From: Nereocystis luetkeana
Taxonomy: Eukaryota; Sar; Phaeophyceae; Laminariales; Laminariaceae
DNA: 64,000 bases
Assembly: GCA_031213475.1 (NCBI GenBank)
Contig: JARUPZ010000030.1
Coordinates: 3,345,371-3,409,370 of the forward strand
Direction of reading: 5' to 3'
Shown: in pieces, positions 4,346 to 47,700 of the stretch
How the letters are laid out: each line of letters begins with the position of its first letter
How positions within the stretch are numbered: the stretch's first letter is position 1
Made by a program: the position numbers and the translations under genes
The notes under the pieces: model-generated
The model's database searches: none
The model's input: the letters and a program-made list of their open reading frames with translations, nothing else
What the model was told of the DNA's origin: nothing

Positions 4346-4355
4346 TGTATACGCA

Positions 4356-8551: not shown

Positions 8552-8866
8552 ACGATAGAGGTAGCGAATTTCCTCTATTCTGTTTCTGAAAGACGGGTTT
8601 CCTTGATCCCAAATCTTGATTTCGAAAAAAAACTTTATTTATAGACTTGGGCCATGGGGATGCATTTAGATTTTTGCTGGAGTCAGTTTTCGGGTGAGGT
8701 TTGGAGCTCCTTAACCCTTTTAGAACCGCAGTCCCGTTCTGGGGACAATCCAGTCAAATTTCAAGTAATTTTGTCCCCAAACGGGACTGCGGTTCTAAAG
8801 GGGTTAAGTGAGGAAGCCTCAGAATGTTTTTAAGGTGAACCTCTATCGATAATTGTAGAACGCCTC
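8552..8866. mobile_element. TIR element family 1, copy 1, interrupted by a MITE
   Basis: The left end CGATAGAGGTAGC and right end CCTCTATCGATAATTGTAGA are inverted relative to each other and match the ends of the copies at 14512, 49376 and 47553. The outermost bases of the left end are lost at the junction with the LINE tail. The interior contains the piggyBac-like MITE at 8711-8807. Without that insertion the element is about 220 bp and non-coding. Confidence 0.75.
8711..8807. mobile_element. piggyBac-like MITE, copy A
   Basis: This 97-bp near-palindrome starts TTAACCCTTTTAGAACCGCA and ends with TGCGGTTCTAAAGGGGTTAA. The TTAA tetranucleotide is duplicated at both ends. It lies inside TIR element copy 1. 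The paralogous copy 3 (near 49418-49440, opposite strand) shows the same flanks joined through a single TCAA, which gives an empty-site comparison. It is too short to code. Confidence 0.9.
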
Positions 8867-8893
8867 ATTTGCGCTATCCATTCTCTTTATTGC

Positions 8894-8979
8894 AGACAAA
8901 TCCCTACCAGGTATGTCTGTATCGTAGTTTGGTGACAGACAAATCTCTACCAGGTATGTCTGTATCGTAGTTTGGTGAC
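8894..8979. repeat. 43-bp tandem duplication carrying TACCAGGTA
   Basis: Two nearly identical 43-bp units start at 8894 and 8937 (AGACAAATCYCTACCAGG...). They differ at one visible base, and each carries the 9-bp TACCAGGTA motif. Confidence 0.9.
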
Positions 8980-9275
8980 GACAGAGCTTGTATATGTGAT
9001 CTGAAGGACTGAAGAATCGCCACTACTTTGAGTTTGAGTGTGCTGCATGTCGACGGGGAAGAAACAATGGTTATATGTAACGAACACATGCCCAGCAGCT
9101 CACAGAATCGCACACAGCTTGCAAAGACAAGTTTCGACGAACTCCTCGATCTCGACAGGGTGTTTTATTTTTTTTTATTTTTTTATGAAGACTACTGGTT
9201 CGATATGATAGAGATGTGAAGAACACACACACAGATGCCAACGGGTAAAAAAACGGTTTAGTGTGAACACACAGG
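8980..9275 (+). repeat. diverged LINE 3'-end remnants
   Basis: Near 9000-9095 (GAAGAATCGCCACTA..GTGCTGCATGTCGACGGGG) and 9210-9270 (GTGAAGAACACACACACAG, ACGGTTTAGTGTGAACAC) are decayed copies of the LINE 3' terminus. A T-rich run lies at 9166-9183. Confidence 0.55.
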
Positions 9276-9303
9276 CATACCTGGTATAATGAAGTACCAG
9301 GTA

Positions 9304-11065
9304 TTAATATAGGGAGTTCAGAATTACCTCCTGCAGGTGAGGTTATGGTTTTGTGCCCCCCACAGCCTTTCCCCCAGGCGCACGCAAGCTCACACTAAAA
9401 CACGCACGCACGCAACCCACCCACGTGAAAGACTTCTACATCATCTAGGCATCTGTGTATACATCATCGACCCATCGTCGCCAGGTCTGGTCCCTTAGAC
9501 GCCACACCAACGACCGCAGAAACACCAGGTGAGGGCTTTTCTTGTCCTGCTTGGCGCCTCATGCCCCCCCGTGGGCTCTGGTTCGCGACACCTCGTCTTG
9601 TTGTACAAAATTTATTGTGTTGTGGCTGGTGGACGCGAACCCCCCCCCGTATTGGGATTCTCACAGAAAGTGGAAAGAGGGCAGGGGTTCTCGGCAGTAG
9701 GTCAGGGCAAGAATCATGCACGGCCCACAGAACGTGGGCCACAACCAAAGCGACAGCCTTTCTTTGTTCCCAAACACCTAGAAAGAAGCGATGACGGACG
9801 AAACGTTTCACAGAAGGTGGAAAAAACACGCCCACCTTGCGGAGTTTCTGGCGATCGAGGAGAAGCTAGAACGCCGGTGTCTGCTGAACATGTTTCAATA
9901 GGCCTCCAAACTGCAGGAGTCCAGTCCACCCGTCCTTTTAGCCCTTTTAGCACTGCACGCAGCAGCGTGTTTGAGTTGTTTTTTCACTTGAAACCGTTCT
10001 TTCTACACGTGGACACCTAGCACGATGCAGGGCAATGAATTTGACACTACTTCCAAGTAATTCTCGCTGAAAACGAGACTGCAGTCCTTGAGGCCACGCT
10101 GGCACCCAAGCGTCTCCTGGTCCCCGGGCTTCCGCTTAATATATATTATTAATATATGTTTTATGGGAACAGAAAGCACTCGCTGCATTATTAAGCTTGT
10201 AAGAGGTTCATCACAGCAGCTTGCGTTTCTCGAGGTTGATCTCCCGCCGGTTCTCAACAGAGGCCTACACCTTGACTTCGAGGTGCTCCAGTTAGTTAGT
10301 TGTCGAAATTGATTGGTCGAAATATGGGGTGCACGAAACGAGACAATAAACATCCCCCACCTGATTGTTCGCACTTGACTTACTTGCGGACAGCTACAGC
10401 CGCTCCTCACAGGAAACTAAAGCCCGCGAAATTGAGGGATGCTCCTGATGGGGCGTATAATAAGGGCGTCGGGTGCGCCAGACGGCTGTCGTGGGCAGTG
10501 ATAAACGTCTCAGGATGTGCTTTCGTGTCAGTTGCTATTAATAGCGAGTAGTAGCACAAAAAACTCGCAAAAACGCTAAAAAAAAAAATCCTTCCACGCA
10601 AGGGAGCACACCACAATAATAGCTACATCACCTATGAAGAAATGTAGCAGATTGCTGTTCTCCAGGCGGATGATACATCTTTTTTTTGGGGAGTTGTCAT
10701 CGCAGATGCTGCGGGAGGAAATACTATTATTAATAAAACGTCCCCATGACGGGGTAGTAAGTTATTGGGCCCATAGACCAACGCAAAGGGGGTTTTAAAG
10801 CTCAGGATTCTCATATATTCGCAGCAACCCTTTGTGATACCAGGTATGATATACTGTAGTATCGGGCTATAGAAGTACCAGGTATGAGATAGCCCGTAGC
10901 ATCAAACCCCTGAATACCCTCAGATTATTCCTGGAGCTCTGAAGTTTCCCTCTGTAAATAGGAATCAATTCCTTGAATGTCCTAAGAGTATTCCCGGGGC
11001 TCTGAAGTTTCCCTTGCGGTACAATGGTTACGATAGCCCACTGGAGAAGAGTAGACACGCGCCCT
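9304..11065. other. no supported gene
   Basis: Overlapping frames on both strands near 9464-10020 show no recognisable domain. A short LINE 3'-like piece (ACCGTTCTTTCTACACGTGG) is at 9993-10012. A decayed ~67-bp direct repeat (GGAGCTCTGAAGTTTCCCT) occurs near 10920-11010. Two TACCAGGTA motifs are at 10838 and 10876. Confidence 0.4.
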
Positions 11066-11163
11066 CGTGTCCTTTTAGAACTGCTGCCCCAATTTGGGGA
11101 CAAACCACTCAAAATTCTCAAGTAGTTTGCCCCCAAAACAGGATTCCGGTCCGGAAAGGTTAA
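11066..11163. mobile_element. piggyBac-like MITE, copy B, decayed
   Basis: CCTTTTAGAACTGCTGCCCC and the downstream GTAGTTTGCCCCCAAAACAG align with the other MITE copies. The right TTAA is intact (11160-11163), while the left target site has mutated to CGTG. This is the most diverged copy in its inner arms. Confidence 0.75.
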
Positions 11164-11318
11164 CTCCCTCCAAGCAGCATGGGAACGAGCGCAACGGAAC
11201 GAGGCTGCTCGCGGTCATTCGTTTCCGTTCCTGTTAATAGCTAAAATCACGTGTTTGGGCCCATCCATGCAGAATCCTGGGCCTCGCCAGCCGAATCGGC
11301 ACTAATGATTGGAGGACC

Positions 11319-11637
11319 TTTAACAATCTGGGAAAAGGGATCTTTAGGTTGGTAGGCTGTTCGGATGTTTTGGTTCCTGTTGGGATCAAGGCACGGGCGG
11401 AGACCCAACCCAACCCCTGACTCTAACCCTAACCCTAACCCTAACCCTAACCCTGATCCCAAACCGCAGCCGAAACGGGCCAAAACTCGCCATAAACGAG
11501 GCTACGCCGAGTTTGCATCGAACCAGGAACTTTCTCAGATAGATATAGATGCGGACGACGATTCCGAAGTGCAGACCACGCTACACATTTTTCAAGTGAA
11601 AAACACCCCTAAAGATCCCTTCTCCCAGATTGCTAAA
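11319..11637. repeat. 30-bp inverted repeats enclosing interstitial telomeric repeats
   Basis: TTTAACAATCTGGGAAAAGG.. (11319-11348) is repeated in inverted orientation at 11608-11637 (..CCCAGATTGCTAAA) with two visible mismatches. Between them, CCCTAA occurs about five times in a row (about 11421-11455), equivalent to TTAGGG on the other strand, followed by degenerate CCC-AA variants. The arrangement could be a small TIR element that acquired telomeric DNA, or a repaired break. Confidence 0.8.
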
Positions 11638-12690
11638 CCTACTCAATGAATGGTATCTTTTGCACATGCCACGGCAAATTGGTGTCCACGTCCATCTTCG
11701 TTGGAGTCCATCTACATCAAGTAATCTTCTATTAGTTCCCGTTCGGTCGGGCCGTTCGGTCCCCCCAAACAGGGAGAAGGAGTTCACCACTTCCTCTTCC
11801 CTTCACTACACGATAATCCTGCTGCACATTGTCGGATGGCAAGATAAATAAGAATCCTGAGTTTTGTTGCCCTTTTTTGCGCCCTTCTGATTCCAATTAC
11901 TTAGGGTCATTCTTCTCGGAGAGCTTTTTTTTATAATTTTTCGACATTTCTTTCGCGCAATTTTTTTCAGGCTTCCTTATTTTCCTGTTGTTTTTTTCCA
12001 AATATTGGAATGTTAACGAAATAGATATTTTTGGTTCTGGAGAATTTCACGAATAGTGACAGAACGCCTCCGGATATTGATACATATCTCCGATTATTTC
12101 CAAACTTTGGAATTTTTGGAAAAAGCGATAAGAATGAACCTTACTACCCGTCATGGGAACGAAGTGTTTCCCCCCGCAACATCTTGGACGACGAAAAAGA
12201 TATATCCTGGGTTTTAGCCAAAATCAGGTATACCTGCTCACTTATCGGCCAAAATCAGTTGCATACTTAAAACAAGAACGAAACACACGTCAGGAGCCCT
12301 CCTTTTGGCCAGGCTGACATCTTACCCGATTTGGACTCGAAAAGGCCAAGGTATACCTGACTTTGTCTACTCTGTCTATTAATAGCTAGCTTTCAACTGA
12401 CTTTCGCCAAATTTGAACCGATCAGAGAGGCCATATGAGTACGTACATACCTGGTACACTGTTGTTTTCTCTGTGCACGCATTTGCGGTCCCTTGGTTGA
12501 AAGTCGTATGCAAAACTTTGGACTCGTACGAACATGCGTACGTATTTATACATACATCATGCGCACTCTGACTTCACTTTTTAGGTTCTTTGGGGTGTAC
12601 GATATGCTTCAGTTGTTAGTTGATTTGATTTGTACTTTGTTGGTTTGTATGGTCACAGGAGTCATATTCCCGCACCATGGACACACTCGG
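11638..12690. other. AT-rich region with dispersed repeat pieces, no gene
   Basis: 11806-11850 holds the end of a dispersed repeat (GCTGCACATTGTCGGATGGC) also found at 39985-40030 and 45600-45640. 11925-12065 is an inverted, diverged counterpart of 30300-30440 (GGAGAATTTCACGAATAGTG). No supported coding sequence is seen. Confidence 0.5.
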
Positions 12691-12892
12691 CATTGCTTCT
12701 GCACCACCCCGCATCGAGGTGGACTCAGATTTAGTACGGCAGGATAATTTGTGCCGAGCAGGCGGTTTCGTAAGGATGGCCGAGAAGCTTTAAAACTGTC
12801 AACGGGGGGGCCTGCATGCGTTCTTCGAAGAGTATCTCGCCAAACCGAACGACTCCTCGCGAATAACAACCAGGTGAGATTCTACGAGCACC

Positions 12893-12990
12893 TTAACCCC
12901 TTTAGCCCCGCACTCCCATATGTGGGGACAAAACACTTTAAATATAAGTAGTTTGCCCCCAAAACGGGACTGGGGTTCTAAGAGGGTTAA
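12893..12990. mobile_element. piggyBac-like MITE, copy C, nested in LINE C
   Basis: This 98-bp near-palindrome has TTAA at both ends (12893-12896 and 12987-12990). The flanks are GAGCACC on the left and TAATACGGTGGGATTGG on the right. The same LINE position in copies A and B reads, on the coding strand, AAGCACCTTAAGAGTACGG with a single TTAA. The element thus inserted at TTAA and duplicated it. Confidence 0.95.
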
Positions 12991-13680
12991 TAATACGGTG
13001 GGATTGGAAGGGAATGAGCGAGGAGCGAACAGTTCATTAGGGGCGAGGATGGCACGCTGTTGCGGGATAAGGTGCGAATTCGTGAACGCTGGTCGGGGTT
13101 TTACCACGAACCTTTTAACATGAAATCGCTTAACCTCGATCCCACGATCATCGACCTTTTGCCGACGCGACCGCTAAACCTGTCGCTCGGAGATGAGCTA
13201 TCCATGGACAAGATGACGGAAGCACTTCAGGGGATGTCAAATTGGAAAGCTGTTGGGCCAGTTTGTCTCTCGGCCGAACTCCTAAAACTCGACCACCCCG
13301 CATTCGTCCAGTGCTTTCACGGTATCCGGGTCAAGTTTTGGGTAACAGGAGAAGTCAGCCAGCAATGGAAAGATGCCACCATCAAGATCCTTCACAAAAA
13401 GAAGGACCGAACTGATTGTAACAACTACACAGGGATCTCGCTTGTTGTCCACGCAGCCAAGTTTTTGTTGAAAATCGTCGCGTCTCGCCTCAGCAACTAC
13501 TGCGAGACCGAGGAACTACTCCCTGAGGAACAGTGCGGCTTCCGCCCCGCACGATGAACGATTGATATGTTGTTCGTCGTGCGCCGGTTGCAGGAGCTCG
13601 GACGACAGAGGAAACTCCCCCTGTACGTCTGCTTCGTCGATCTGCATAGAGCGTACGACTCTGTCGACCGAGAGCTGCTA

Positions 13681-14028
13681 TTTTTTTTTTTTTTTTTTTT
13701 TTTTCCATCCCATTCATTATCTTCGCACATCTTCTTCTCTCTCTCCTTCCAACTCGTAACTCAGATCCGGGGTCACATAGCAGGCTCTTCTCCCCCCTTC
13801 CCGCTACGGTACGTGCCTTCATTTTTTATCGCGAGAAGATTTCAGCCTTTTCTTCCCTCGTCGACTCGCATCGAATTGTGCCTACCCACGCTGCAAGGCG
13901 CTCTCAACAATTGAATCCCTTTTTTTATTTTTGCAAATAAAGTCAAAGTCCGACCCTCCTAGGGCTCGAACCCAGGACTCAAACAGGTGGAATTCGAGGT
14001 TAACCACTTGAACCACCGGGGCGACCGG
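13681..14028 (-). mobile_element. tRNA-derived SINE, copy 2, nested in LINE C
   Basis: The plus-strand T run (13681-13704) is the 3' tail; the tRNA-like head ends at 14028 (GGGGCGACCGG). It separates LINE motif A (VDRELL) from the downstream GVPTKML block, which are contiguous in copies A and B. The flanks GAGCTGCTA and GGACTGAATGG are both similar to the uninterrupted target GAGCTGTTATGG, suggesting a decayed target duplication of about 11 bp. Confidence 0.9.
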
Positions 14029-14511
14029 TACTGGACTGAATGGGAGGTACTCACACGCTTTGGTGTACCAACCAAGATGCTGAAAAGTATCCGTAATCTC
14101 CACAAAGGCATGCGGGCTCGCGTGCGTACGGATGACGGCAAACACTCGGAATGGTCTGATGTCACGCAGGGACGGCGGCAAGGCTGTGTACTATCACCGC
14201 TACTGTTCAATATATTATTCGCTGCTGCGCTACACGTTGTACTAGTAGGCTTCAGCCCAGACAAAGCTACTGTAAGGGATCTGGTTCAACTCCGTGATAC
14301 TGGAGTAGTCGGAACAAAGGAGCAGGAGCCATTGGCGTGCGTGCGAAGGGCTGCATGGGCATGTTGTACGCCGATGACGCAAGGAATATCACGAAGTCGA
14401 CTGAAGGGCTCGCCAAAATGATTGAGTCATCGTGATTGTCTTCGAAGCAGCATGCTTCACGGTATCGGAAAATAAGACAGAGACAATGCTTCTACGAATA
14501 CCAGACCAGAC

Positions 14512-14755
14512 GAGTTCTGCGATAGAGGTAGCACATTTCCTCTATTTTTTTTTCTCAATGACGAGGTGCCTTAACTCAAAACCGTCGGAATGCCAATCTT
14601 GTTTCGAAAAATGACGTTTCAGTATATTTGGACTATGGGCTTATTCATCGGGATTCCGTTTGTATTTTGCTGAAGTCAGTTGTCGGGTGAGGTATGGACC
14701 TCCTTCAGTAACACGCCCCAGAAAAAAAGCGTGAACCTCGATCGTAGAACGCCTC
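14512..14755. mobile_element. TIR element family 1, copy 2, nested in LINE C
   Basis: The left end GAGTTCTGCGATAGAGGTAG and right end CGATCGTAGAACGCCTC are inverted repeats. The element is 244 bp, AT-rich and non-coding. It is flanked by ACCAGAC at 14505-14511 and 14756-14762. The empty LINE site in copies A and B reads ACCAGACCGGACAACCCTCG, so a 7-bp target duplication fits. A 7-bp duplication does not by itself assign a superfamily. Confidence 0.9.
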
Positions 14756-15645
14756 ACCAGACAACACTCGCACCACTGCTCGCCATCGAAGCAGCAGGCC
14801 AGAAGTATGGACAGACGGTGCAGTTCTTATACCTAGGCGGCATTATCAACGAAAATGCCAACCTCTCGCTCAAGATCGACCAACGGATCCGTCCGGTGCG
14901 GGCATGCCTCAAACGGTTCGGCCCGGAGTTGTATGATAGGACGACCGCCCGCCCCCCTTAGCCTGAAAGTCCGAATGCTGAAGGCCGAGGTGATTGAGAC
15001 CCTGCTGTACGGGTGTGTGACGTGGACCCTTAGAGCAGAACACTTGCCAAGCTTCGAACGGCTCACCGCTAAGTACTTTTGCGAGTCATTGGCTTCTAGC
15101 GCCGACTTCGTACTGACCACACCATCCTCTCGCATGCGAAGACCCTCAAGATGATACGTTGCGAGAGCATCGAAACGACCACCCGTAAACGGCGGCTCTT
15201 CTTTGCGGGGGCCGTGGCACGGCAAAGCAAGGAGTGACTACCCAGTCGGGTATTGTTCGGGACGATGGCTGGCGGGGAGAACCCGAGACCTGGCGGACAG
15301 TTCAAGGCTTGGCATAGATGCACAGTCGAAGACCCCAGGGAGTTCCGAGCTACCGAAGGGTTAACGGAACTTTCCCCCTTGGTGTTTGAAGTGGAGACCG
15401 CGCTGTGGTCCACTGCAGCAAACAAGGCGGGGAAGTGTTACCGGGGGATCCTCGAAGTAGTCGAACGGTTCATGATGAGGTGGCACGAGGATGAGGCTGA
15501 GCTTTGAACAGGCAGCGCCGCGCATCCGTCGTGGGTGTTGTCCAAGGGAATGGGGCAAGGGGGGGCAACAAGAAGAAGAGTGGAAGGAAACCCGACCAAC
15601 GGAATGCGGGGGGGGGGGGGGGGGTCAGGAGGGGTAGAACGAAGA

Positions 15646-16124
15646 CCGCGGTGGACGAAAGTAGGAAGGATATGGCAGAAAGGGTAGCAAGGCACCAGGC
15701 CGACTAGGATATAGAACATGCCTATGCTACTAGAGCCGCCAACTGGTGTAGCCGCTTCGAATGCGGTCTTCCTTTGTCTTCTTTTCCTTTTTTCTTCTTC
15801 TTTTTTGAGCTTGATTATCTGTGATTTTCATTTCATTTACAAGCTGAACTAAAAAGAGTCGTCTGGCGTATGTGGATGACGAGCCTCCGCGGTGGACGAA
15901 AGTAGGAAGGGTATGTCAGAAAGGGTAGCAAGGCACCAGGCCGACTAGGATATAGAACATGCCTATGCTACTAGAGCCGCCAACTGGTGTAGCCGCTTCG
16001 AATGCGATCTTCCTTTGTCTTCTTTTTCTTTTTTCTTCTTTTTTGAGCTTGATTATCTGTGATTTTCATTTCATTTACAAGCTGAACTAAAAAGAGTCGT
16101 CTGGCGTATGTGGATGACGAGCCT
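15646..16124 (+). repeat. 241-bp tandem duplication at the LINE C ORF end/3' UTR
   Basis: The segment from CCGCGGTGGACGAAAGTAGG to GTGGATGACGAGCCT appears at 15646-15886 and again at 15887-16124 with few differences. It covers the last ~22 codons, the stop and the start of the 3' UTR. A G run (15608-15624) sits just upstream. Confidence 0.9.
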
Positions 16125-17704
16125 GCTTTGCTCGTTTCGTGTTGTCTGACGCCGAGGAGCGGGGCATTGTTGACGAACGCAGGACGGAGACGGCAGGCGG
16201 GGTAGCTTGGTGCCAGGCAGACTAGCAAGGAAAACCTGGCTACGGTATACTCCTGCCACAAACTGTTACGGCTACCTGGAGGGTGCTTTGTGCTTCGGTT
16301 GCCTGTTATTTCCCCGCGGTTCTTAGTCTTCCTCTCTTTATAATTAGCTGTGTTTCTTTTTTGGCTCATTCTTTTCAAGTATCTGCCACATTCCCTGCGG
16401 GGAGGCACGACAGCTTTTTCCGTTTTTTTTTTAAATTTCTCTTTCGAGTTGTTTTATACCTGGTATGTTTTACTCCGAGTTCCCTCTTTGATATATTGTG
16501 TATGTTGTGCCTTTTTTATCCAGTAGAATGACACAGTATTGTCTGCTACTGTTGTGCTTACTGCATACGAAGTACCAGGTACGTAACAACGTAGTATCTC
16601 TGCTGTGGCGTAGGTTTCTGACCACATAACTTGTATCTCACCATCTCTTTATGATTGAAGAATCGGCACGGACACTGGTGTTGTGCTGGATGTCGACGGA
16701 TAGAAATAACGGTTTAATGTGAAGAACACACACAAGGAGTTATGGGCTATATCAACTATAAATATATACCCTGGTACCTGGTACATGGTACAAGGTCCCC
16801 CTGCAGGAGATGTGTGTGTGTGTTCTTCACATTAAACCGTTCGTTCTACCCGTCGACCTCCAGCACAACCAGTGTCCGTGCCGATTCTTCAATCCTATAA
16901 GAGATACAAGTTCTGTGGTCACAAAGATACGCCACAGAGATACTACGTTGCCACGTGTGTAGTGTGCACTGCAGTGGGCAATGCAAAGCCATGCCATCAT
17001 ACTAGATACGACAGTCACGACATACGCAATCTATGAAATAGTGAAACGAAAAGAAACAATCAAAGTGAAAACAAAAACAAGGTAGACAAATCAAAAGAGA
17101 AAAAAAAAAACAAAAATGAAAGCAAAATCTAGGAGAAACAATCTGTCGTGCCCCCCCACCCGCAGGCGAGGTGGCCAACACTTGAAAACAAACGAGCTGG
17201 AGAAAAGAAAGAAAATAAAATAAAATAAGAAAAAACACCACTTCTTGTAAACAGAGTAAGACAAAGAACCAAGGAAAAAAGTAACAAGGAAAAACAACAA
17301 AGAAAGGGGAAATAACAGGCAGACCAAAGCCCAAAGCACCTTCCAGGTGGCGGCAGCAGCTTGTGGTACGAGTAGTATAGCCAGGTTCTCCCTGCTAATC
17401 CGCCTGGTACCTTGCTACCCAGACTGCCGTCTCCGCCCTGCGTTCGTCAACTATGCCCAGCCCCTTGGCGTCAGACAATACGAAACGAGCAGAGCAGGTT
17501 CGTCGTCCAACCACGCCACACGGTTCCTTCAGTACGGCTTATCAATCAGGAAAGGAAGAGGAAGAGAAAAAATAATATGAAAATCACGGAGAGTCAGCGC
17601 AAGAAAGAAAAAAAAACAAAAACAAGAAGAGAAGACAAGGGAAGACCACGTTCGAACCAGCTGCACCAGTTGGTAGCACTAGTAGTATGGTCATGTTCTA
17701 CTTC

Positions 17705-20587
17705 CTAGTCGACTTGGTGCCTTGCTACCCTGTCTGCCATCTCCTTCCTACTTTCGTCTACCGTCGTTTCCCTTCCACCCCTCCTGTTCCCCCCCCTCTC
17801 CGCATTCCCTCGGTCAGGCTTTCTGCCACTTCTCCTGTTGCCCCCTCCCCCCCCGTTCCCTTGGGCACCATCCACGGCGGATGCACGGCGCTGCCTACTC
17901 ATCTCAGCCTCAGCCTCGTGCCACCTCACCATGAACCGTTCGGCTGCTTCAAGGATCCCCCGGTACCACTTCCCCGCCTTTTTGTCTGCAGTTGACCACA
18001 ACGCGGTCTCAACTCCAAACACCAAGGGGGCAACTTCCGTTGACCCTTCGGTGGCTCGGAACTCCCTAAGGTCTTCGACTATGCATCTATGCCAAGTCTT
18101 ACACTGTCCGCCTGGTCTCGGGTTCTCCCCACCAGTTATCGTCCCGAATATTACCCGACTGGGTAATCGCTCCTTGCTTTGCCGTGCCACGCCCCCCGCA
18201 AAGAAGAGCCGCCGTTTACGAATGGTCGTTTCGATGCTCTCGCAACGTGTCATCTTGAGGGCCTTCGCGTACGAGAGGGTGGCATGGTCAGTATGAAGTC
18301 GGCGCTGGAAGCCAATGACTCGCAGCAGGACTTGGTGGTGAGCCGTTCGAAGCTTGGCAAAGTGTTCCGCTCTGAGGGTCCACGTCACACACCCGTACAG
18401 CAGGGTCTCAATCACCTCGGCCTTCAGCATTCGGACTTTAAGGCTAAGGGGGGCGGTCGTCCTATCATACAACTCCGGGCCGAACCGTTTGAGGCATGCT
18501 CGCATGAGGCGGATCAGTCGGTCGATTTCGAGCGAGAGCGCAGCGTTTTCGTGGATAACGCCGCCTAGGTATAATAACTGGGTCGTCTGCTTATACCTCT
18601 GACCTGCCGCTTCGATGACGAGCGGTGGTGCGAGGGTTGTCCGGTCTGGTGTTTGTAGGACCATTGTCTCAGTCTTCTTTTCCGACACCGTGAGGCCTGC
18701 TGCTTCGAAGACAGTCACGATGACTTAATCATTTTGGAGAGCCCTTCAGCCGACTTCGAGACAATTCCTGCATCATCGGCGTACAACATGCCCCATACAG
18801 ACCTTCGCACGCACGCCAATGGCTCCTCCTTCCCTGTTCGAACTACTCCAGCTTCACTGAGTTGGACCAAATCCCTCACAATGGCTTCGTCTTGGCTGAA
18901 GCGTACTAGTACGACGTGTAGCGCAGCAGCGAAGAACACGTTAACAGTAACGGTGATAGTACACAGCCTTGCCGCAGCCCCTGCGTGACATCAAACCATT
19001 CCGAGAGCTCGCCGTCATCAGTACGCACGCGAGCCCGCATGCCATCGTGGAAATTACGGATAATTCTCAGCATCTTGGTTGGTACGCCAAAGCGTGTGAG
19101 TACCTTCCATAACAGCTCTCGGTCGACAGAGTCGTACGCTTTCTGCAGATCGATGAAGCACACGTATAAGGGGATTTTCCTCTGTCGCCCGAGCTCTTGC
19201 AGCCGGCGCACGACGAACAACATATCAATCGTTGATCGTGCGGGGCGGAAGCCGCACTGTTCCTCGGGGAGTAGTTCCTCGGTCTCGCAGTAGTTGCTGA
19301 GGCGGGACGCGACGATTTTCAACACACTTTGCCTGCGTGGGCAACAAGCGAAATCCCTCTATAGTTGTTGCGGTCAGTTCGATCCTTCTTTTTGTGAAGG
19401 ACCTTGATGATCGCATCTTTCCATTGCTGAGGGACTTCTCCTGTTAACCAAACATTGACAAGGATGTTGTGAAAGCGCTGGGCGAATGCCGGGTGGCCGA
19501 TTTTTAGGAGCTCGACCGGGAGACCATCTGGCCCGACAGCTTTCCAATTCGACATCCCCTTAAGTGCTTCTGTCATCTCGTCTATGGATGGTTCATCTTC
19601 AAGCGACAGTTTAGGCGGTCGCGGTGGCAAGAGGTCGATGATCGTGGGATCGAGTTTCAGCGACTTCGTGTTCAAGAGTTTGTGATAAAACCCCGCCCAT
19701 CGTTCACGAATTCGCACCTTATCCCGTAGGATCGTGCCATCCTCGTCCCTAATGAACTGTGCGCTCCTCGCTTTAGTCCCTTCCAATCCTACCGTACTCT
19801 TAAGGTGCTTGTAAAAGCCTCTTTGGTCGTTGTTCGCTAGGAGTCGTTCGGTTTCTGCAAGGTACGCTTCGAAGTACGCATGCAGTCCTGCGGCAATCAC
19901 CTTCTGCAGGTTCGCACACGCAGATCTCAGGGTCTTCCACGGGGTTATGTCCCGGGGGTGGGCACGCAAGAATTGTCGTGCATCCTCCCTCGCTGTCCAT
20001 GCTGGTATGAATGCGGCCAAGGTTTCGGCAGACTTACACCATCCATGTCTGCGGTGGCGACGTGCAGGGGGTGGTACCTCTTTTTCGACCCCATCAATAT
20101 CAGCCGTAGTGAAAATCTCAACCATACCAGACGTATTACGGGGCTGGATAGGCTGGTTGAGAGTGGAGATGACCCTGGAGACTACTCGTTCACGACACTT
20201 TCCATCGGACATAAAAAGCTGCCTGTCGAACTCTCGGCGTTTCGTCGGTCTACGTTTTTTTCTGTTGGGCGAAAAATGACCACCGAGTCGGACTTTGATA
20301 TACAAGATGTTGTGGTCTGAGTCAGCCTTAGCTGGGGCAGGAGGCTGTGGGACGACTTTCGCATCTTTTGCTCTAGGTCGATGGACTTGATGGGTTAGGA
20401 TGTAGTCAATCCGCTTACGGTCATTCGGGCTGGTGCCGTTGTGAGTATGCGATATCCCACCCTTGCGCGTCCTGAAAAACGTGTTGGTGAGAGCTATCGT
20501 TACGAACATCACGTCCATACGCTCCCAGCACTCTGCTTTCATCATCACCGCACCCTTCCTTCCTCTGTCCAGTTCGCGCGTTGGCAT
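17705..20587 (-). pseudogene. LINE RT region of copy B, broken by frameshifts
   Basis: Four overlapping frames reproduce the copy A protein: 20587-19319 (end of endonuclease with RIDYIL and SDHNIL, then the RT fingers), 19325-18906 (motif [10 protein letters not shown]), 18939-18715 (LYADDAG) and 18718-17705 (connection and C terminus). Compared with copy A there is a 1-bp deletion near 19322 (CAACACACTT versus CAACAACACTT), a 1-bp deletion near 18942 (CACGTTAACAG versus CACGTTGAACAG) and a small indel near 18725. The catalytic residues remain, but the frame is lost. Confidence 0.85.
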
Positions 20588-21047: not shown

Positions 21048-21160
21048 AAGTGCCTCCTTCTGTCTCTTACGAGCCTCGCGTGCTGCTTTCTTTGCCAGCC
21101 GACGTGAGGCTCGTCCCCGCCTTCTTTTTTTCTTTTTTTTTTTTCTTTTTTTTCTCTATG

Positions 21161-22980: not shown

Positions 22981-22989
22981 GTTCCTAAC

Positions 22990-32580: not shown

Positions 32581-32584
32581 TTGG

Positions 32585-34927: not shown

Positions 34928-34999
34928 CGCGCGTCGTATGCTGTCTACACGTGTCCACGCACGCAAAAAACCCATTGACCCGCGTCGTATGCCGGCTCA

Positions 35000-38255: not shown

Positions 38256-38259
38256 GGGG

Positions 38260-39240
38260 GTCACCAGCAAAAATATGTCGCGGACAGAGCAGCAGCAGAA
38301 CAGCACAGAAGCATCACATACCAGCGGAAGCCCGAGAGCAGAGGCAGAACAGCAGCAGCAGCCGCAGTAGCGCATCATACACTCCCGAGGCTGCCCCTGG
38401 TACAACAGTCGGCGAAGGGGAGCCCTGTGGGGCACGAGGAGAAAAGGCATACTCATATATTTCAGTGAGGCGGACTGCGTGAGCAGCAGCAACCGCAGAA
38501 GAACACATCAGCTGCACGTAGCAGGAGCAGCAGAGCAGGAGCAGCAGAGCAGCGGAAGTAGTAGCAGCAGTAGCACATCACGCACGCCCGAGACCGTTCT
38601 CGGCAAGGTAGTCAAGGCAGGGGAGCACGGTGGGGTACGGTGAGGAAATGTATAATGGCGTACCCGGTGGCGAGGTACCTTGTAGTGGATGAATGTCGTC
38701 CATACTAAAGTCAAGTTATTCCAGTCTCACCAAGTGCGTGCTCTCGTGCTCGCAGGGACGTTTTCTTGCGTAACAACTAAACGGACTGAAGCGCGAGAGC
38801 GTGCGTTGGCAAACTTCGATGAAAAATCGACTAGTGTTGGGTCTGTGCGACTAAAATGAAGGCACTTACCGGCGGGGCTAAGGGACGACACCTGGGATCA
38901 CGGGTTGTCCAGAAGCTGGTAAGTAAACGTGACATTAAAAAATTCAAAACATACGAAAGGACCATACCCTCGAGGTTCAGCTACGAAACATATCTCAGGC
39001 TGTCCTACTCCATGAGGGAAGCTGCGTGAGCAGCAACAGCAGAACAGCACAGCAGCAGTGGTACGTAGCAGTAGCAGCACCAGTAGCAGCACCAGCAGCA
39101 AGCAGTACATCACGCCCCCCCCGAGGACGCCCAGGCACAGTAGTCGGGGCATTGTAGTACGGTAGGCACGGTACGACTACGAAAAGCATACTAGCTAAAA
39201 ATCACATTCTCGAGGGTCAGGAACGAAACATGTTACGGGG
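38260..39240. repeat. CAG-rich repeat array with diverged units
   Basis: The blocks GAGCAGCAGCAGAACAGCAC, GCATCATACACTCCCGAGGC / ACATCACGCACGCCCGAGAC / ACATCACGCCCCCCCCGAGG and CTACTCC.TGAG..AAGCTGCGTGAG recur about every 200-550 bp (near 38290, 38365, 38570, 39000, 39105, 39240). No coding sequence is supported. Confidence 0.65.
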
Positions 39241-39959
39241 TGACCTACTCCGTAAGTGGAGCTGCGTGAGGGTGTAAACGACACACGACGTCGTCGTCGT
39301 ACCTCGTCGTAACCCGAACACGTACTCGTTTATAACTTATCACTTGGGTTTTTCTTATCGGTTACGTGATAATAAAGAAAAAACGTCTTCACAACATAGC
39401 CAAAACTCCTCGCTTCATGAATGTGCTAATTGCCTGCTGCGTGTACAAAAAAGCAAGTCGTAGACACCGTTCGTACCTCCACCACCGTACCGCTTCTCCC
39501 GCGGTGTAGGCTAATCCCATTCGGTCGAAAACAAATACCCCGTCTTTTCTTCCCCACGATACCTGGTCGCCTAGCGTGCACAGCAGCCGAGGGGGCTGGT
39601 GACGCTTGTTTCGCGACCACATGCTAGCCTACAAATCTCAACACGTTTGCGGAAAGCTCGAGCTTTCACTTAAAATATAGCCCGAATAGGAATTTTGACA
39701 CGCGTTTCTGGGACACTCAACCCTTAACGCACGCGCAACGGCGGACCATGAAACCGACGTCTCAGCCCATATTCCCCACACTCTGGCCGCCTTCAGCTGT
39801 CGAAAGCCGCGGAGGCTGCGGCCTTTCCCGTTTCGGCCAAAGGAGAAGATATCCAATCTGGGTGCTGGCTTAGAAAACAAATAACATTTTTACCGTCACG
39901 AGCGAGCATAGATATCGGTTGACGGCACAATTGCCCATTGACGGATAGCCGTCAAGGGG

Positions 39960-40205
39960 ATCCCAATGCTGAAACCTATTATTATTCCTCTTGCCATCAG
40001 ACAATGTGCAGCATGATCTTCAACATGGATCACTCATAACTTTCCCGAAAGAAGAAAACCTCAGAAACAAAAGGAAACCCATGCACCAAGTCTACCTCCC
40101 TTCCGTGCCAACTTTCAGCTTGTCTACTCTATTTGCTGTATTTGCTCCTTCCTTCTCATTATTACGTGAAACCTATCATTTTCAAATAAATATCAAATAA
40201 CGCCG
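39960..40205. repeat. dispersed repeat, copy 1 (inverted to 45470-45645)
   Basis: TGCCATCAGACAATGTGCAG, CAACATGGATCACTCATAAC and CCCATGCACCAAGTCTACCT match the reverse complement of 45480-45640 almost exactly. Confidence 0.85.
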
Positions 40206-40627
40206 TCAACCAAACTCTTTGTCCACGAGAATGTGATGGATCAAATGTTGACCAGTCAACTGGTCCAACTCTTAGGTGAGTCATGACCTAATTAAAAGGT
40301 TTCAGTAAAACACGAGCACGGCACACCCCGCCAGCAGGCAGCCAGGGCACGGTGCCGGCACGCCCAAGGCTGCGCCCGTCACAGTCGGGCTCGGGGATCA
40401 CGATGACGCAGTTTCGACCCGTAAGGTGAAGCTCATCTCGCGCTAGCACGAACAACGCAAAAAAACACGTCTAAGAAAATCTGAGGAGCGTTGAGAGCAC
40501 ACTGCCAACAATATCGCACTTACACTTATACGCGTGACGGAAGTACTACTGTGTGGCGTTAGATAGTTTAACCACAGGGGCGAACGTGCAGTGGAGATTA
40601 TTCCAAGTGGGGCGTACCGCATAATTA

Positions 40628-40724
40628 TTAACCCCTTTAGAACCGCAGTCCCGTTTTGGGGACAAACTACTTGAAATTTGAGTGTTTAGTCCCCAGAACG
40701 GGACTGCGGTTCTAAAAGGGTTAA
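40628..40724. mobile_element. piggyBac-like MITE, copy D
   Basis: This 97-bp copy has intact TTAA at both ends (40628-40631, 40721-40724) and the best-preserved arms: AGAACCGCAGTCCCGTTTTG and its inverted partner AGAACGGGACTGCGGTTCTA. It should form a single long hairpin. Confidence 0.92.
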
Positions 40725-42975
40725 GATGCGCACCGGGGAGATGATGACACTCTAGAACGTCCGACGGAATCCTCGATCTCACAACTTTTCTCTTCAGTGG
40801 TATATATATAATAAAAAAGTCGGTATCATGCACGAGCTTATCATCACTCGCAATTAATTAAGAAAGTGAGATTCGACAAAACCCTCGCTCTCGAAGCTGA
40901 TCAGGCATATATATTCATCAATATCGTGCCCCCCCCCTCTCCCGTCTGTTTTGTCGGAAATACATGGTGATAATCATAATTTTTAAAGAGTTTCAAATTC
41001 ATCCAAGACGAGGAACATATTTACCCATCTCCCTCGTACGTAGAATCCGCAGTACGCACGATCTTAAATCACACGCGACTTGGCAACATGAGTTTCGACG
41101 AAATCATCGATTTCACGGTGGAATTATAGATAATTATCATGTATGTCCGCTTTTTCCCAGAAAGAATAATGCTCATTATTTGTTCAAAGTCATAAAATTT
41201 ACAAATAATCATCCCTCGGAAAATCTACTCACATGTATGTAGAACCATCCCATACCAAAACTCAACAGCATTCGATCAATCTTTCTTTGTAACATGGAAA
41301 TATTTCAACATGTTGCAACGTCATAACACCCTCCTTTATTTGGCTATATAGTATCAGTGCGCAGAATCATTTATGTCAACTGCCCTGTTGACTAGGGAAG
41401 CCACTGGCCTATGATACATCCTTGACAAGGGATTACGTATATAATACGCGCGAACGGCTTATCAATTATTATTATTATTTCTAAAATCAAGATGAAAAAT
41501 GATATATAGACGAGAAGTATTGCGCAGTTTGCAAAGTTGAGCATACCTATCTGCTTTGTGAGTGGAAGCTATCTCTCGCACGCCCTATATAATATGCTTC
41601 TCTTTAAAATATTGACTCATTTCCTTACTTAGTATTTAATGCTGCTCTCTAGAAGTGATGATGGTACAGTTAGTATCGAAATACACTTACTTATAAACAA
41701 GTGTTACCAGGTAGGTGTGAAATACACACCGTAAAAACTCCCCACTCGTATCAAGGTACTATATAATATGTGCAACCTCGAAAGATTGTCCTCGTTTTTT
41801 TCCAAAAAAACAGAGTCACACCCAATCCTTGAACTAATTATTGGCTTCAAATTTTGCCTCCCTCACACGGACTGTATTTCCGACATACATGATGAGGCAA
41901 ATACACCCGTAGTAGTCCGCGCGATTAAGGTATCAGACACAGCTTGCAGATGAGATATGAGTTTCGGTAAAATCACGAACTCGACAGCTAGCTGTTGCTT
42001 TTTAATTTTGTAAAGATGCTCAAGAAAGGGTTTACTATGATCGGTCTCGCACAGAAGACCGCGGAGGGACAACTATCAGTGGGAGCCGCTCCCACGTCTA
42101 TTAATAATTAATATAGATGAAAGGCAATACTTCGTGTACGATCAAAAGAAAATTCCCAACCTTCGCAGTGAGTGGTTGGCATATATATTCGCGGTACTTT
42201 CGCGGAAGGCCCCCTACCTAGTCGATCACGCAGAAGGATAGCCGGAGGAATAAAAGGAGGGTGTGGAGGGCGTAAGGTCTGAGGTACAGTACGAAAACAG
42301 ACAGCGTAGATAGATGCGGTACGTGTCGCCAGGTTACCTGGTACAGCAAGGTAGTGGGAAGTGTCGTAGGACATTGTCATCTTCGCGCTTGAACCTCTCG
42401 TAGTAAGTGGTCGGCATCGTTGCTGGCGTTTGGATGCGTGGCGAAGTGCGGAGAAGGCGTTGGGATACGGGGCGAAGCGAGGGTTGGTCATACATTTGAG
42501 TGAAATGAACTATTTAGACTGTTTGGACCAGATACAGGAAACACGGTTAGCCTGTTTCTTATTATTCGTAGAAATGCACTCGCGTACGCGTGTCAGCACG
42601 GCTGTTGCTTCGGAGCTACCCTGGTAGTCGGTATGGGTCGTCTGTGTACGCGTGTGCAATGCTGTGCAACATCTGAAAAAAGGAGATAGAGACGTGCGTG
42701 CTGGAAGCAGGCTTAAACTTCTTAGCAACAATCACTAAAAGGTCATTTGAACATGTTTGGCTATTGTCTGCGGTGGGCGTGCGGACGGCGGAATGTGTGG
42801 TGTCGTCGTCCCGCTGTACTGATCTTCAAGATATCCAAGCCTGCTTGTCGTAGCTATGCGTTCGTGTACGCGTTTGTCAGCTGCGCTTTATGTGGTAAAA
42901 TGAGTTAGAAACGTGTGAGCAAAAATGAGATAGAAACGCCGTTGTGCTGAGTTGAGTGTTTCAGAGGCCAGGACA
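40725..42975. other. no supported gene
   Basis: This is AT-rich, non-repetitive-looking sequence with TACCAGGTA-type motifs at 41705 and 42335. The short frames have no recognisable features. Confidence 0.4.
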
Positions 42976-42978
42976 ATA

Positions 42979-43076
42979 TGAACCCTTTTAGCACCGCACT
43001 CCCGTAAGTGGGGACACAACACTCGAATTGTAAGTAGTTCGTCCCCAAAACGGGACTGGGCCCCTAAAAGGGTTAA
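42979..43076. mobile_element. piggyBac-like MITE, copy E
   Basis: This 98-bp copy has an intact right TTAA (43073-43076); the left site has mutated to TGAA. The arms read CCCTTTTAGCACCGCACTCC and, on the right, GGGACTGGGCCCCTAAAAGG. Confidence 0.85.
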
Positions 43077-43479
43077 TAGTAGCTGGAGGGAGTCTTGCCG
43101 AGGTGGAGGCTACCAATGGCGGTGCTTCCTCGTATCGGTCGACTGGTGTATGCTTTGTCGTCGTCTGTAGATTCGACGGATGTGCGTGTGGTCGTCGTCG
43201 CTGAATACGCTGGTATGTGACGGGGTGAATGCGTATCATGGGCTTCGTCGTGCAGGCCCTGGTCTAGAGGAATGTCAGGAAGGGCCGATCTAAACCATGC
43301 ACTGGACAGACGGCGTAACAAAAGCAGCGACCCGGCGGTAAAATGTTTTCGATTCTGCGAAAAAAAAAGTGGGCATCGAAGTTAAACTCTATTTTCAATA
43401 TGTTCGTAAGTAAGTGGGCATCAGTGCTATCTATATACATACCTGCCAGGTAAAAATAATACCGGTAGAAATATATGAC

Positions 43480-43825
43480 CGTATTGCCTGCTGCATTAAC
43501 TATTGTTGAGCTATAGAGTCAAAATCTCGATCGAATACCCAGCCCAGGGTCATCCTTATAACACTCTCCCCTCCTTCTGAACGGTGGGATATTTTGGGGC
43601 GTCGGTACCGTATACGGCCGTAGGCTGACTTACCTGCTTCGATTTAACACCTGGGGAACCAGGGGGATATTCTTTTAGGGACGCACGTGCAAGCGTTTAT
43701 ATAAAATAATCGTTCGGCGAGATATTCGATTTTGGTTCCTTGACGGCTATAGGGGTAGAAGATCAATCGATTACCCAGCCCAGGGATCGATTGCCCAGCC
43801 CAGGGTAATCATTATAACATGCCGG
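43480..43825. repeat. dispersed repeat, copy 1 (second copy at 55350-55730)
   Basis: Shared blocks with 55350-55730 are GGGGCGTCGGTACCGT, ACGGCC.TA.GCTGA, TTTTAGGGACGCACG and the repeated CCCAGCCCAGGGTAATC motif, which occurs three times here (43538, 43774, 43794). The element class is unknown. Confidence 0.7.
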
Positions 43826-43829
43826 TATA

Positions 43830-44095
43830 CATATGCATAGGGGCATTGTGTTTGCCCGCACTTGGACTTTCTTTCGTTTCTTTCGTTTTCCCTTTCTTCC
43901 AACGCATGCTGGACTGTGTAATCGTGTCTGTCGTATCCAGTACGATGGCATGGCATTGCATTGTTTACTCTGATTACTGCATTACAATGTAGTGTCTCTG
44001 TGTCGTGGATTTGTGATCACCGACGACCTGTTATAGTTGGCACGGACACTGGATGTGCTGGGTGTCGATGGGTAGAAAGAACGCACACAAACTAT
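43830..44095 (+). mobile_element. diverged LINE 3'-end fragment
   Basis: GTCTGTCGTATCCAGTACGA, ATGGCATGGCATTG and GGTGTCGATGGGTAGAAAGA match the LINE 3' terminus in plus orientation with heavy divergence. A further inverted piece lies at 44295-44375. Confidence 0.65.
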
Positions 44096-44608
44096 ACGAG
44101 AAGACGAGCCTCCAGGGAGTCCAAACAAGCAAGTTGATATTTATTTGGTGCACAGGGTCGGCTTTGCTGCAAGGGATGGACTGGGGACGTCTCACGTACC
44201 CACCATGAGCCTGGAATAAACAGCAGTAGATCGGATATACTGTATATATATATATATGTGGTCTTGAGAGTTAACTGGTATTTCCACCAGTACACCTAAT
44301 GCCCGTGCCGGTTCTTCAATCCTATAGCGAGAAGCAAGCTCTGTGGCCACCAAACGTACGACACACAGATACTACTCTACTCATTCATACTGGAATGCCC
44401 CCATCTATCAAGACCACCTCCGGCCAGTGCTGCGCTCCACAAAGACGGCATTTCGACACCTTCGTCTCATTCATAACGCCTCCTCTTCCCCCGGATAGGG
44501 AAACCGCCGTTGTCCTCGGGTGACTAACAAAACAAGCACTTAATTCGCCCTAACACTAGGCCCCCTCTGCAACAACAGGTGAAGGAAACAAATATTCGAC
44601 CGAACGAA

Positions 44609-44707
44609 ATGGCTGCATTCCGTCTTCTGGTAGTGGCAGTCTTCGGCCAGATGGTGACTGAGCAAGCCCAGGGGCAAAACTGCGGCTTCCTCTCGCTCGG
44701 ATGTCAG
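44609..44707 (+). CDS. exon 1: signal peptide
   Basis: 33 codons from the second in-frame start candidate (ATGGCTGCATTCCG), ending in TGTCAG before GTAAGTG. The hydrophobic core is followed by EQAQGQNC, a plausible cleavage zone. Phase 0 at the donor. Confidence 0.75.
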
Positions 44708-47700
44708 GTAAGTGTTCCACTACGAAGTACTAAACCGTATCTGGAATATGTATATTGTGTAGGCAATTTGCTTCCTTGCTACACAGCACTATACACCCAA
44801 TGCTGGGGCGCCCGGCAATAGTTCCTTCCGTCGAAACAACCAGCAGCGCAATTTTCCGTGAACAGGTTTTTAGATGGCAACGGAATTGTAAGGGAACCCA
44901 ATATGGCCGTATAGACGTCAACGATGTATGTTATGATGGGGTTTTTTGTTTCCGACGGCAATCGTATTGACCGTACACAGAAAATAAAATTGTATAAAAA
45001 AAGAGGTTTAGTTTCGGCGGCGAAAGGTCGCGCAGTTTAAACCTTTTCGAACTGCAGTTCCGTTTCGGGGACAAACCCCTCCATTTTCAAGTAGTTTGTC
45101 GCCTCAAAAGGGCTGCGGCCTTGAAGGGGTTAAAGTCGGTACGGTCACCGGTAACATTGATTGATATGCCTGGCAGTATTACGCAGGAGTTTTTGGTGGT
45201 GAACAGCACAGCAGTTTTTTCGTTTTATTCCAAGAAAGCACGAGGCCGACAAATCAATAAAGGTGGGTCGATGGCAAGGAAGGGGGTAGTGAAGGAACGC
45301 CTGCTCCAAATCGTCTCGGTGACCACTCAGGTCGCCATTTCGAGGAAGGTGTCGAGGTTCAAGCTCCAGCTTAGGGGCCGCCAAGAAGGACGAAGGAACA
45401 GGGGGGGGAGGGATGACAGACCCACACCGATGGCGTGGGGATGGAGCTTGGATGCAGCTTAGGATTTAAGAATATAAAGACAGTGTCAAATGGAGTAGAC
45501 AAGCCAAAAATTGGTACAGAAGGGAGGTAGACTTGGTGCATGGGTTTCCTTTTGTTTCCGAGGTTTTCTTCTTTCGGGAAAGTTATGAGTGATCCATGTT
45601 GAAGATCATGCTGCACATTGTCGGATGGCAAGAGAAATAATAAAACAAAGACTTGCTGACTGTAACACACAAATTTGCCGAAGCTGGCGGACGATTCCTA
45701 CATGTCATTTGTATGATTAAGTTGAGTCGGCTGGTCGGTGGACTTCTGGCCGTCGTTCGCGGCCCATATATATCGTTATATGGGCAGTTTCTAACTACAA
45801 AAGTTGCAAAATACTAGTAGTAACACAATTCGTCTATTACGGAGGACCATAGTAAATACCAGGTAGGGCTAAATTTTGTGAGTAAAAATAGGTAAATACA
45901 TAGATAGGTTATTGTGTGGACCGTAGGTCCTATTTACTATGATCCCCCGTAAAAGTGGACAGGTCCTATCGACCCAACAGGAGGCTATGTGTAGAGTTCA
46001 AGATCGGGACATTTTTTATCGTTGGGACCCACGTGTGATGTTTGCTCAGATAAAGAAGAAAATCAGCTTTATTCCTTTCGAGCACGATGGACACCTGTGT
46101 TACACTGCCCACCAAAACAAGTTGGCATTATTGCCAAAAGTCCCGACAACAAAGCCAATGGAAGCACGTCTGCCGCCGTTGTTTTCCCGAGGACATTTCG
46201 TTTTTCTGCTCTAGCTCGACCGTTCCTAGCGAGCAAAAAATTGGCAGACCGGATGTGAGCTCCTTGGTGCACTCCCGTGAGTGTGCCAAAGCGACAGCAC
46301 TTTTCGTGTCCTCCTTCATACCGGACCTTGTCGCTGAAGGTTGAAAATGTCGTTCCAGGTGCTTGAATTTTCGGTTTCTTGTACTCTAGTCAAGTATTTG
46401 TTTCTGCTGTAGAACGAGATGGAGGAACCCAGAAACCGAAAATTCAAGCACCTGGAACGACATTTTCAACCTTCAAAGACAAGGTCTGGTACGAGGGACG
46501 ACACAAAAAGTGGCGTCGCTTTGGCACACGCACAGGAGTGCACCAAGGAGCTCATATATATCTGGTCTGCCATTTTTTTGCGCGCAAGGAACGGTCGAGC
46601 TAGAGCACAAAAACGAAATATCCTCAGGAAAAAAACGGCGGCAGACGTGCTTCCCTCGGCTTTGTTGTCGGGATTTGTTTTTTTGTGTTTCGTGGGCAGT
46701 GCAACACAGGTGTGGAGCCTGAGAGCAAGGCTCTCGCGCCTCGCTGCAAAACCCTGCCTAAGATACGCCTCTCAAGTACTACAAATACCGATCCCAACAC
46801 CTGAACCAAGCACAATAATAGTGGTTGCCCTCAAATGATAGTGAATCTTCCCAAGGTAGGCTATTTACGCACCCAGGTAGGTGCGACTACCGACCGGCCT
46901 TTCAGCCTCATTCAAAGCAATACCATAACAACCACGTTTGGCATTGTGTTGGCCGACTGGTGTGAGGGGCCTCTGACTACAGTAACTGTTGTCCCAGAAC
47001 TCCCTCATTTTGCATCATGAACGCCAATAGATATGACGGCTACCTACGGTAGTTTTTTTGAAAAATAGGGCCCACGCTTGCCTATCGCACGAACGAGCCG
47101 TGCCCGTGGGTGATACTCTCACACGAAGTAGATATCCCGTATTATTAGTACAGAGTGGTAGTTCTTAGTTGGCATTTGAATCGCAACTCGAGCGTATATT
47201 TGTCGTTGCTGTTCATCGCTACGTCTATTGTTGTTGGTCAATCATCCCACCTTGGCGCATACCCATTCCCATTGCTGTGCGTGTACGACATCCAACAACC
47301 TACCGCGTGAACGTGTATCATGCCTAACCCACGGACCGGCGCTGCATGGTTCCCAATCTCCTGGCGTCCTGTATGTGCTCGGCTTCTGCAGTGCGACGAT
47401 CACTTGACGGAGTTTGTACCGTATGATGGTCTATGCGCAACACTACACTTTCCTACTTGCCGAGTCCGCGGGGGTGTGACTACAAGGTGCGAGACCTCGA
47501 ACTTCATCGACGAAAACAGTGTGAGTGAGGCATTCGTGGGTAGGGGTGACCTGGGTGCATTCTACAGTAGTACGGTAGAGGGGTGCACCATATGTGTTTC
47601 TGATGGTCCTCACTCGTCGAGGAGCTCAATATCTCGCCCAAAAACTAAACTCCTGAGCACATAGGAACGTGATACCCGAGGGTCAATCCCCCCACGGCGT

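Follow-up and report, generated by a model that had tools for sequence, protein, structure and literature searches.

Six near-palindromic sequences in a 64,000-nucleotide stretch of Nereocystis luetkeana DNA (C30:3345371-3409370, hereafter the window; genome total, 465 Mb) very probably belong to one non-autonomous family of miniature inverted-repeat transposable elements (MITEs) of the piggyBac superfamily, which would have its transposase most likely from elements of about 11.35 kb, or a relative of them. The MITE would be mobilised by cut and paste, inserting into TTAA and duplicating it, and each arm would arise from the left end of such an element, corresponding in the consensus to the element tip plus half of a left-end palindrome. 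The family is new and a probable partner is present; as a kind of element it is not new, because coral MITEs (CMITEs) of about 100 bp with CCCTTT-type ends are already known. With its probable partner it offers a MITE-transposon pair, from a photosynthetic eukaryote, whose end architecture can be read from the sequence.

Six MITE copies in the window

A preliminary description, made from the letters of the window, had reported six near-palindromes of about 97 bp. All six are present:

8711..8807, plus strand: MITE copy 1, of a young subfamily; TTAA at both borders; 4.2% from the consensus
11066..11163, plus strand: MITE copy 2, degenerate; right TTAA kept, left lost; 12.1% from the consensus
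12893..12990, plus strand: MITE copy 3, within a long interspersed nuclear element (LINE) copy; TTAA at both borders; 13.5% from the consensus
40628..40724, minus strand: MITE copy 4, the top profile match; TTAA at both borders; 3.1% from the consensus
42979..43076, plus strand: MITE copy 5; TGAA at the left border and TTAA at the right; 16.5% from the consensus
45037..45133, plus strand: MITE copy 6; TTAA on both sides, left tip with its first C mutated; 12.6% from the consensus

A profile built from these copies and run on the window matched the same six (E 7e-30 to 2e-24), with no further sequence there above the inclusion threshold. Copy 1 (8711-8808) is identical to C13:1072866-1072963. 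The ends needed amendment. The copies had been said to begin with TTAACCC, and TTAA does lie at both borders of four of the six, but the copy at 11066 starts with CGTGTCC and that at 42979 with TGAACCC; the copy at 45037 has the TTAA but reads AACC where other copies have CCC. The right end, given differently before, is AAAGGGGTTAA or AAAAGGGTTAA in most copies. The absence of a transposase from the window was borne out: no piggyBac transposase match falls there, the family search having placed its matches on C1 and C2 and the protein search on C1, C2, C9 and C36.

Consensus, abundance and age

The consensus, built from the 37 copies scoring above 80 bits among 67 matches in the sequence examined, has 97 bases, 88 of them self-complementary without gaps. 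Its ends are TTAACCCTTTTAG...CTAAAGGGGTTAA, so both termini start with CCC, within the pattern CCC or CC[C/T]T, and its 38-base arm includes CGCAGTCCCG. In two copies examined, the inverted-repeat arms measure 34 and 44 nt and are 91% and 89% complementary. Most copies are 97-98 bp long, which is how coding capacity was judged, and together with the inverted repeats and a high, homogeneous copy number this is the make-up of a MITE.

To estimate abundance we used seventeen 10-kb regions (170 kb, the first 17 of 77 drawn) placed at random on ten large contigs of known length. They held 10 copies, which scales to about 27,000 in 465 Mb, with a Poisson range of roughly 13,000-50,000, and copies are scattered over many contigs. 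A genome search with copy 1 returned 1441 candidates; the 40 that were scored, the window copy included, are each 96-98 bases long and 99-100% identical. The 16 copies from the random regions and the window differ from the consensus by 3.1-17.9% (mean 9.5%). This spread, together with the nearly identical copies, points to a long history and to one or more recent bursts.

Several variants were seen. Two tandem MITEs at L044:1408-1602 have a single TTAA in common, a copy at L046:1501-1623 has its left end repeated, and a form of 107 bp with an additional GTCCCCAATT block occurs twice in the random regions (L018:9003-9109 and L032:5559-5665). A stretch of about 40 bases at L048:1501, TTAACCCTTTTAGAACCGCAGTCCCGTTTTTTTGGGGTTAA, has TTAA at both ends and is perhaps an extremely short derivative.

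Target-site duplication and empty sites

The preliminary description had proposed a tally of TTAA duplication, which we ran on samples. TTAA stands on both sides of seven of the ten random-region copies, on one side of one and on neither side of two; the window copies have it on both sides (4/6) or one side (2/6). Among all 69 matches examined, a set that takes in loci picked for altered copies and omits L001 and L009-L012 as overlapping other loci, TTAA was found on both sides of 33 and one side of 25, and the remaining 11 have neither or an unreadable end. By source, both sides carry it in 8/12 matches at loci from the copy-1 search, 14/40 at loci from a 26-base end pattern and 0/1 at transposase loci.

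Comparison of the sequence examined with the joined flanks of 32 copies revealed paralogous empty sites for three insertions, those at window positions 12893 and 8711 and one at L042:1436. The ten empty copies, in alignments of 69% to 85% identity, read TTAA in five cases, TCAA in three, and TTCA and TCAT once each, so that the five non-TTAA sites are one or two changes away from TTAA. Five further flank matches were excluded: four were tandem neighbours within L036 or L044, and the fifth paired L036 with L041 at a MITE. The empty sites in the window are as follows:

7745..7762, minus strand: LINE copy A, empty paralog of the copy-3 insertion site; single TTAA
19792..19809, minus strand: LINE copy B, empty paralog of the copy-3 insertion site; single TTAA
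49419..49436, minus strand: empty site in a repeat paralogous to the copy-1 insertion; TCAA
14704..14707, plus strand: further empty site for the copy-1 insertion; TTCA, in an alignment 71% identical

The LINE empty site had been claimed before, and AGCACCTTAAGAGTACGG is indeed present on the minus strand at 7745 and 19792, with TTAA at both. For copy 1, the claimed paralogous site exists at 49419, but it reads TCAA rather than TTAA. Empty sites lacking a single TTAA had been named beforehand as evidence against the element, and by the letter 49419 counts against it, whereas other paralogs read TTAA. The six paralogs of the 8711 site comprise TTAA at L024 and L048, TCAA at 49419 and L020, TTCA at window 14704 and TCAT at L026, a mix that fits one decaying TTAA. 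The L042:1436 insertion has two empty paralogs, one TTAA and one TCAA. It and the 8711 insertion sit in related repeats at different places, the two sites being 137 bases apart in L024.

LINE-related sequence near 12810-13390 and 19399-19888 contains the copy-3 insertion and the empty sites for it. A LINE-like open reading frame of 844 amino acids lies at window 5655-8189 on the minus strand and carries a reverse transcriptase domain (PF00078, E 5e-35); one reverse transcriptase was the sole Pfam match in seven long open reading frames of the window, and an Rfam search of the window returned nothing at gathering score.

Larger piggyBac elements and their transposase

The preliminary description had predicted an autonomous partner elsewhere and proposed a search for DDE_Tnp_1_7 (PF13843) genes bounded by the same ends. 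PF13843 matches were found at two loci on C1 and one on C2, and a partner of this kind is probable: three elements of about 11.35 kb have the transposase between defined ends that start with CCC and abut TTAA. These ends are related to those of the MITE but are not identical throughout. The C2 locus is a fragment of an 11.35-kb-type element.

The ends were located by comparing copies. L014 and L015 are 97% identical over 8.7 kb, and near one end L014 reads TTAACCCCTTTCGAACTAGACCACCGTTTGGGGACAATTTTTGTCCCC; the left end of L015 lies at C1:6562659, where the L014 alignment predicted it, and was confirmed by a pattern search. That search found 24 left ends in the genome, of which 18 have TTAACCCCTTTAGAACTAGACGACC exactly and six, L014 included, are one base off within the first 16. 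In a search with a piece of L013, 32 of 44 alignments start at query positions 300-310, 22 of them exactly at 302, which corresponds to L013:1807 and gives a right end of CCCTTATAGAACC. The right-end pattern occurs at 25 places and is preceded by TTAA at 22, and by TTAG, ACAG and ACGA at the others. A right end of the same sequence as the left had been expected; among the 24 left-end places there was no oppositely oriented pair within 20 kb.

Of the twenty left-right pairs that could be formed, three span 11.35-11.39 kb and fifteen 6.75-6.88 kb; the other two measure 13.9 kb and 10.55 kb, the pairing of the latter being uncertain. A right partner is missing for four of the 24 left ends. TTAA is present at both borders of 17 of the 20, a count that leans to TTAA because the search patterns started with it, with three mismatches allowed. 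The three 11.35-kb elements match L014 across the whole searched piece (94-100%), and the 6.7-kb class has no match to positions 3209-7764 of that piece, where the transposase exons lie. The ends of this 6.75-6.88-kb class (for example C3:11065507, C4:12307261 and C21:411567) are related to those of the 11.35-kb transposon, and six of its fifteen paired copies are exactly 6747 bases long with both TTAAs. A stretch of about 580 bases at L013:8314-8896, 77% self-complementary, is a large palindrome of another kind.

Four open stretches of L014, within 3878-4369, 5222-5608, 5995-6507 and 6839-7318, resemble piggyBac-type transposases. Three match PF13843 (E 6e-07; 0.016, below the curated cut-off; and 2e-07) and the fourth has no match. 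The best PDB matches of the joined exon pieces are piggyBat (9c0f, E 5e-05) and piggyBac (6x67, E 5.5e-05), followed by unrelated entries at E 0.6. The similarity to these two transposases is weak and split over several stretches. Their three catalytic aspartates have likely counterparts, as DEQ, CDN and GGVD in the joined pieces align with the piggyBac segments that contain D268, D346 and D447, the residues named in the part of PMC7351741 consulted. Like piggyBac and piggyBat, the transposase also has a C-terminal cysteine cluster (CLCKSC...CKEC); no zinc-ribbon model in Pfam matched this C-terminal piece, so a palindrome-binding domain is suggested rather than identified. A nearer relative lies at C1:12825551 (72-87% identity).

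MITE arms resemble the left end of the larger elements

The outer 16 bases of the MITE arm (TTAACCCCTTTAGAAC) are also those of the transposon's common left end. They are exact in one of the three 11.35-kb left ends and one change away in the other two, and exact in 18 of the 24 left ends. Each MITE arm contains the 12-base element tip CCCYTTTAGAAC. Farther in, arm and left end have a block CCG-TTT(T)-GGGGACAA at nearly the same offset, the MITE being one base longer. The sharing covers the outer 16 bases and the inner block, not the whole arm. The left end aligns to the arm with a score of 23, compared with a mean of 2.3 (SD 1.9) for 1351 TTAA-anchored reads outside MITEs; only one read reached 23 or more, at the edge of another MITE copy, and the runner-up, at 21, is the left end of L014 itself.

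The transposon has GGGGACAA as one half of a compact palindrome, TTTGGGGACAATTTTTGTCCCCAAA, which occupies bases 23-47 counted from the L014 tip. The 170 kb of random sequence contained 17 palindromes with perfect 11-base arms and a loop no longer than 5, so such a palindrome is not expected by chance this near an end. Its core is present at 22 of the 24 known left ends. A strict genome search for it gave 35 matches, 26 of the compact 25-base length and nine longer; letters were seen for 19 of the compact ones, all identical, and for seven of the longer ones. Neither GGGGAC nor GTCCCC occurs in the first 200 bases of the right end, where a single GTCCC lies at base 174. The palindrome halves of the MITE consensus stand about 20 bases apart in the centre, one in each arm, and both arms are therefore left-end-like beyond the tip.

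We scored the arms of the 28 copies, among the 69 matches, in which both tips are readable, a set that includes loci picked by exact tip matches. Of the 56 tips, 25 are closer to the transposon's left end, 31 are tied and none is closer to the right end. These likenesses suggest that the MITE may have derived from left-end sequence and that the transposase of the 11.35-kb elements may have acted on it.

Several findings weigh against this assignment. Bases 17-24 of the arm mostly mismatch the transposon left end, and at the right end the likeness is confined to the tip, with a score of 8 that 21 of the 1351 reads equal or exceed; for these reasons the true helper may be another element, to which those seen are cousins. 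GGGGACAA is exact in both arms of 14 of the 28 scored copies, in one arm of 11 and in neither arm of three. In 20 of the 28, tip base 4 is T in the left arm and C in the right arm, and the right and left ends of the transposon differ likewise at this base. Some transposase copies have stop codons, and no constraint is visible in the substitutions between copies: L014 and L015 differ by 2 synonymous and 18 non-synonymous changes over four exon pieces, and L014 and L013 by 5 and 15 over three. The genome also has other transposase lineages, at C1:10026178-10027108 (54-56% identity), C36:3926704 (39%) and C9:9500815-9501932 (31-37%, E about 3e-04). Finally, two-left-end constructs were reported inactive in the relatives studied. 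According to the part of PMC7351741 consulted, those of piggyBac underwent neither excision nor integration when the native enzyme was used, and in PMC11707139, likewise consulted in part, piggyBat with two left ends was inactive in cells. A high-copy element of left-left type is therefore unexpected.

Alternative helpers and origins

The strongest alternative, which we consider a real contender although the odds are against it, is that the sequences are a piggyBac MITE whose helper belonged to another lineage, extinct or unseen, the 11.35-kb elements being cousins with related ends. The mismatched arm bases 17-24 and the presence of at least three other transposase lineages speak for it, as does the divergence of the copies, which implies long activity, against just three full 11.35-kb copies. 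Yet none of the 35 strict palindrome matches lies near the other transposases when coordinates are compared by eye, in a search that misses diverged ends (it recovered 22 of the 24 known left ends). Searches for the MITE tip followed by other sequence likewise gave nothing near those transposases by eye; they require an exact tip and can miss.

These tip searches yielded no better partner. A 26-base MITE end with a non-MITE interior occurs at 20 places, mostly MITE variants and nested or rearranged copies, with no clear larger element among them. L047 has one MITE end and no second end within its 3 kb, and L033, L050, L051 and L052, which are 88-89% identical position by position in three comparisons, look like copies of a single repeat. 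Patterns with the 16-base tip and another interior gave 80 places in one search and 96 in another, transposon left ends included. Recurring classes that share the tip, such as ...AGAACCGCAGTAGT and ...AGAACTAA, look like sister families, and apart from the transposon left ends themselves none was seen within about 30 kb of such an end, by eye from coordinates. Among the 80 places (for example C10:1584279 and C4:9987831), ends with TTAACCCYTTTAGAAC followed by ..CAGTAGT or ..GCAGT recur, probably further MITE or transposon families with a common tip.

TTAA duplication with CCC-starting ends had been put forward as the hallmark of piggyBac; the duplication supports that assignment, but it is not diagnostic alone, as Kolobok elements share it. 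A Kolobok-type MITE like the Xenopus T2 family, whose MITEs are similarly prevalent (PMC6004289, in the part consulted), is nevertheless very unlikely. The ends of T2-MITE and Kolobok elements begin with AGGRR or AG, and the AG/RR form is absent here: the MITE termini begin with CCC, which favours piggyBac, and resemble those of elements with a PF13843 transposase. On these two grounds the Kolobok reading was rejected, and no search for Kolobok transposases was made. Least likely of all is a dispersed regulatory or satellite hairpin that does not move, which near-perfect palindromes can be and which the tandem copies with one shared TTAA at L044 would suit, and which we rejected because three insertions have empty sites, most random-region and window copies have TTAA borders, and copies are dispersed on many contigs.

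Within the piggyBac MITE reading, we tentatively raise a further idea, which we think less likely than not: that the MITE is a natural left-end/left-end piggyBac element, in which a single, split left-end palindrome is flanked by two tip motifs. Snap-back at the GGGGACAA...TTGTCCCC palindrome in the left end of the transposon may have produced it. In solved piggyBac complexes, the C-terminal domains of the dimer bind the palindrome of only one end, and with a hyperactive enzyme two-left-end constructs did excise and integrate, to a lesser degree (both from the part of PMC7351741 consulted). If the idea is true, tens of thousands of copies would mean either a transposase lineage that accepts symmetric ends or one central palindrome that serves both, something not observed in cells with native piggyBac or with piggyBat. 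Should both arms be left-end-derived, the family would allow a natural test of the requirement of piggyBac for unlike ends and might serve as a model for the birth of palindromic MITEs; otherwise it is an ordinary abundant MITE. We found no description of a symmetric piggyBac MITE in literature covered by titles and abstract openings, which is not proof of absence.

Comparison with known elements

The closest counterpart is the CMITE of the coral Acropora (PMC2872659, in the part consulted). Both elements are about 100 bp long, duplicate TTAA, have an empty allele or site and occur in tandem copies, and most CMITE families have CCCTTT-type ends like those of the present MITE. A piggyBac element of Acropora, AmiPB1, has terminal inverted repeats identical to those of CMITE family I. 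The CMITE repeats are 13-14 bp or shorter, whereas the present element is palindromic at 88 of 97 consensus positions, and an estimated 1600 or so copies in A. millepora contrast with roughly 27,000 here.

Trichoplusia ni piggyBac and Myotis piggyBat have a tip motif followed by a palindrome at the left end, as here (PMC7351741 and PMC11707139, both in part), and piggyBac has the same TTAA target (PMC7351741). Both require unlike left and right ends, in contrast to the two left-end-like arms of the MITE. In the brown alga Ectocarpus, piggyBac elements have already been annotated: the part of PMC12477816 consulted has a table row 'DNA/PiggyBac 4, 1588', which, seen without column heads, we take as families and copies. 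The miniature elements that it names are Mariner-Tc1, unlike the piggyBac MITE described here, and the terms TTAA and MITE do not occur in its main text as searched.

Apart from these elements, 68 matches to light-harvesting proteins (PF00504; exon pieces and copies), a sign of a photosynthetic eukaryote, were seen, with clusters at C32:5191488-5290931 and on C20.

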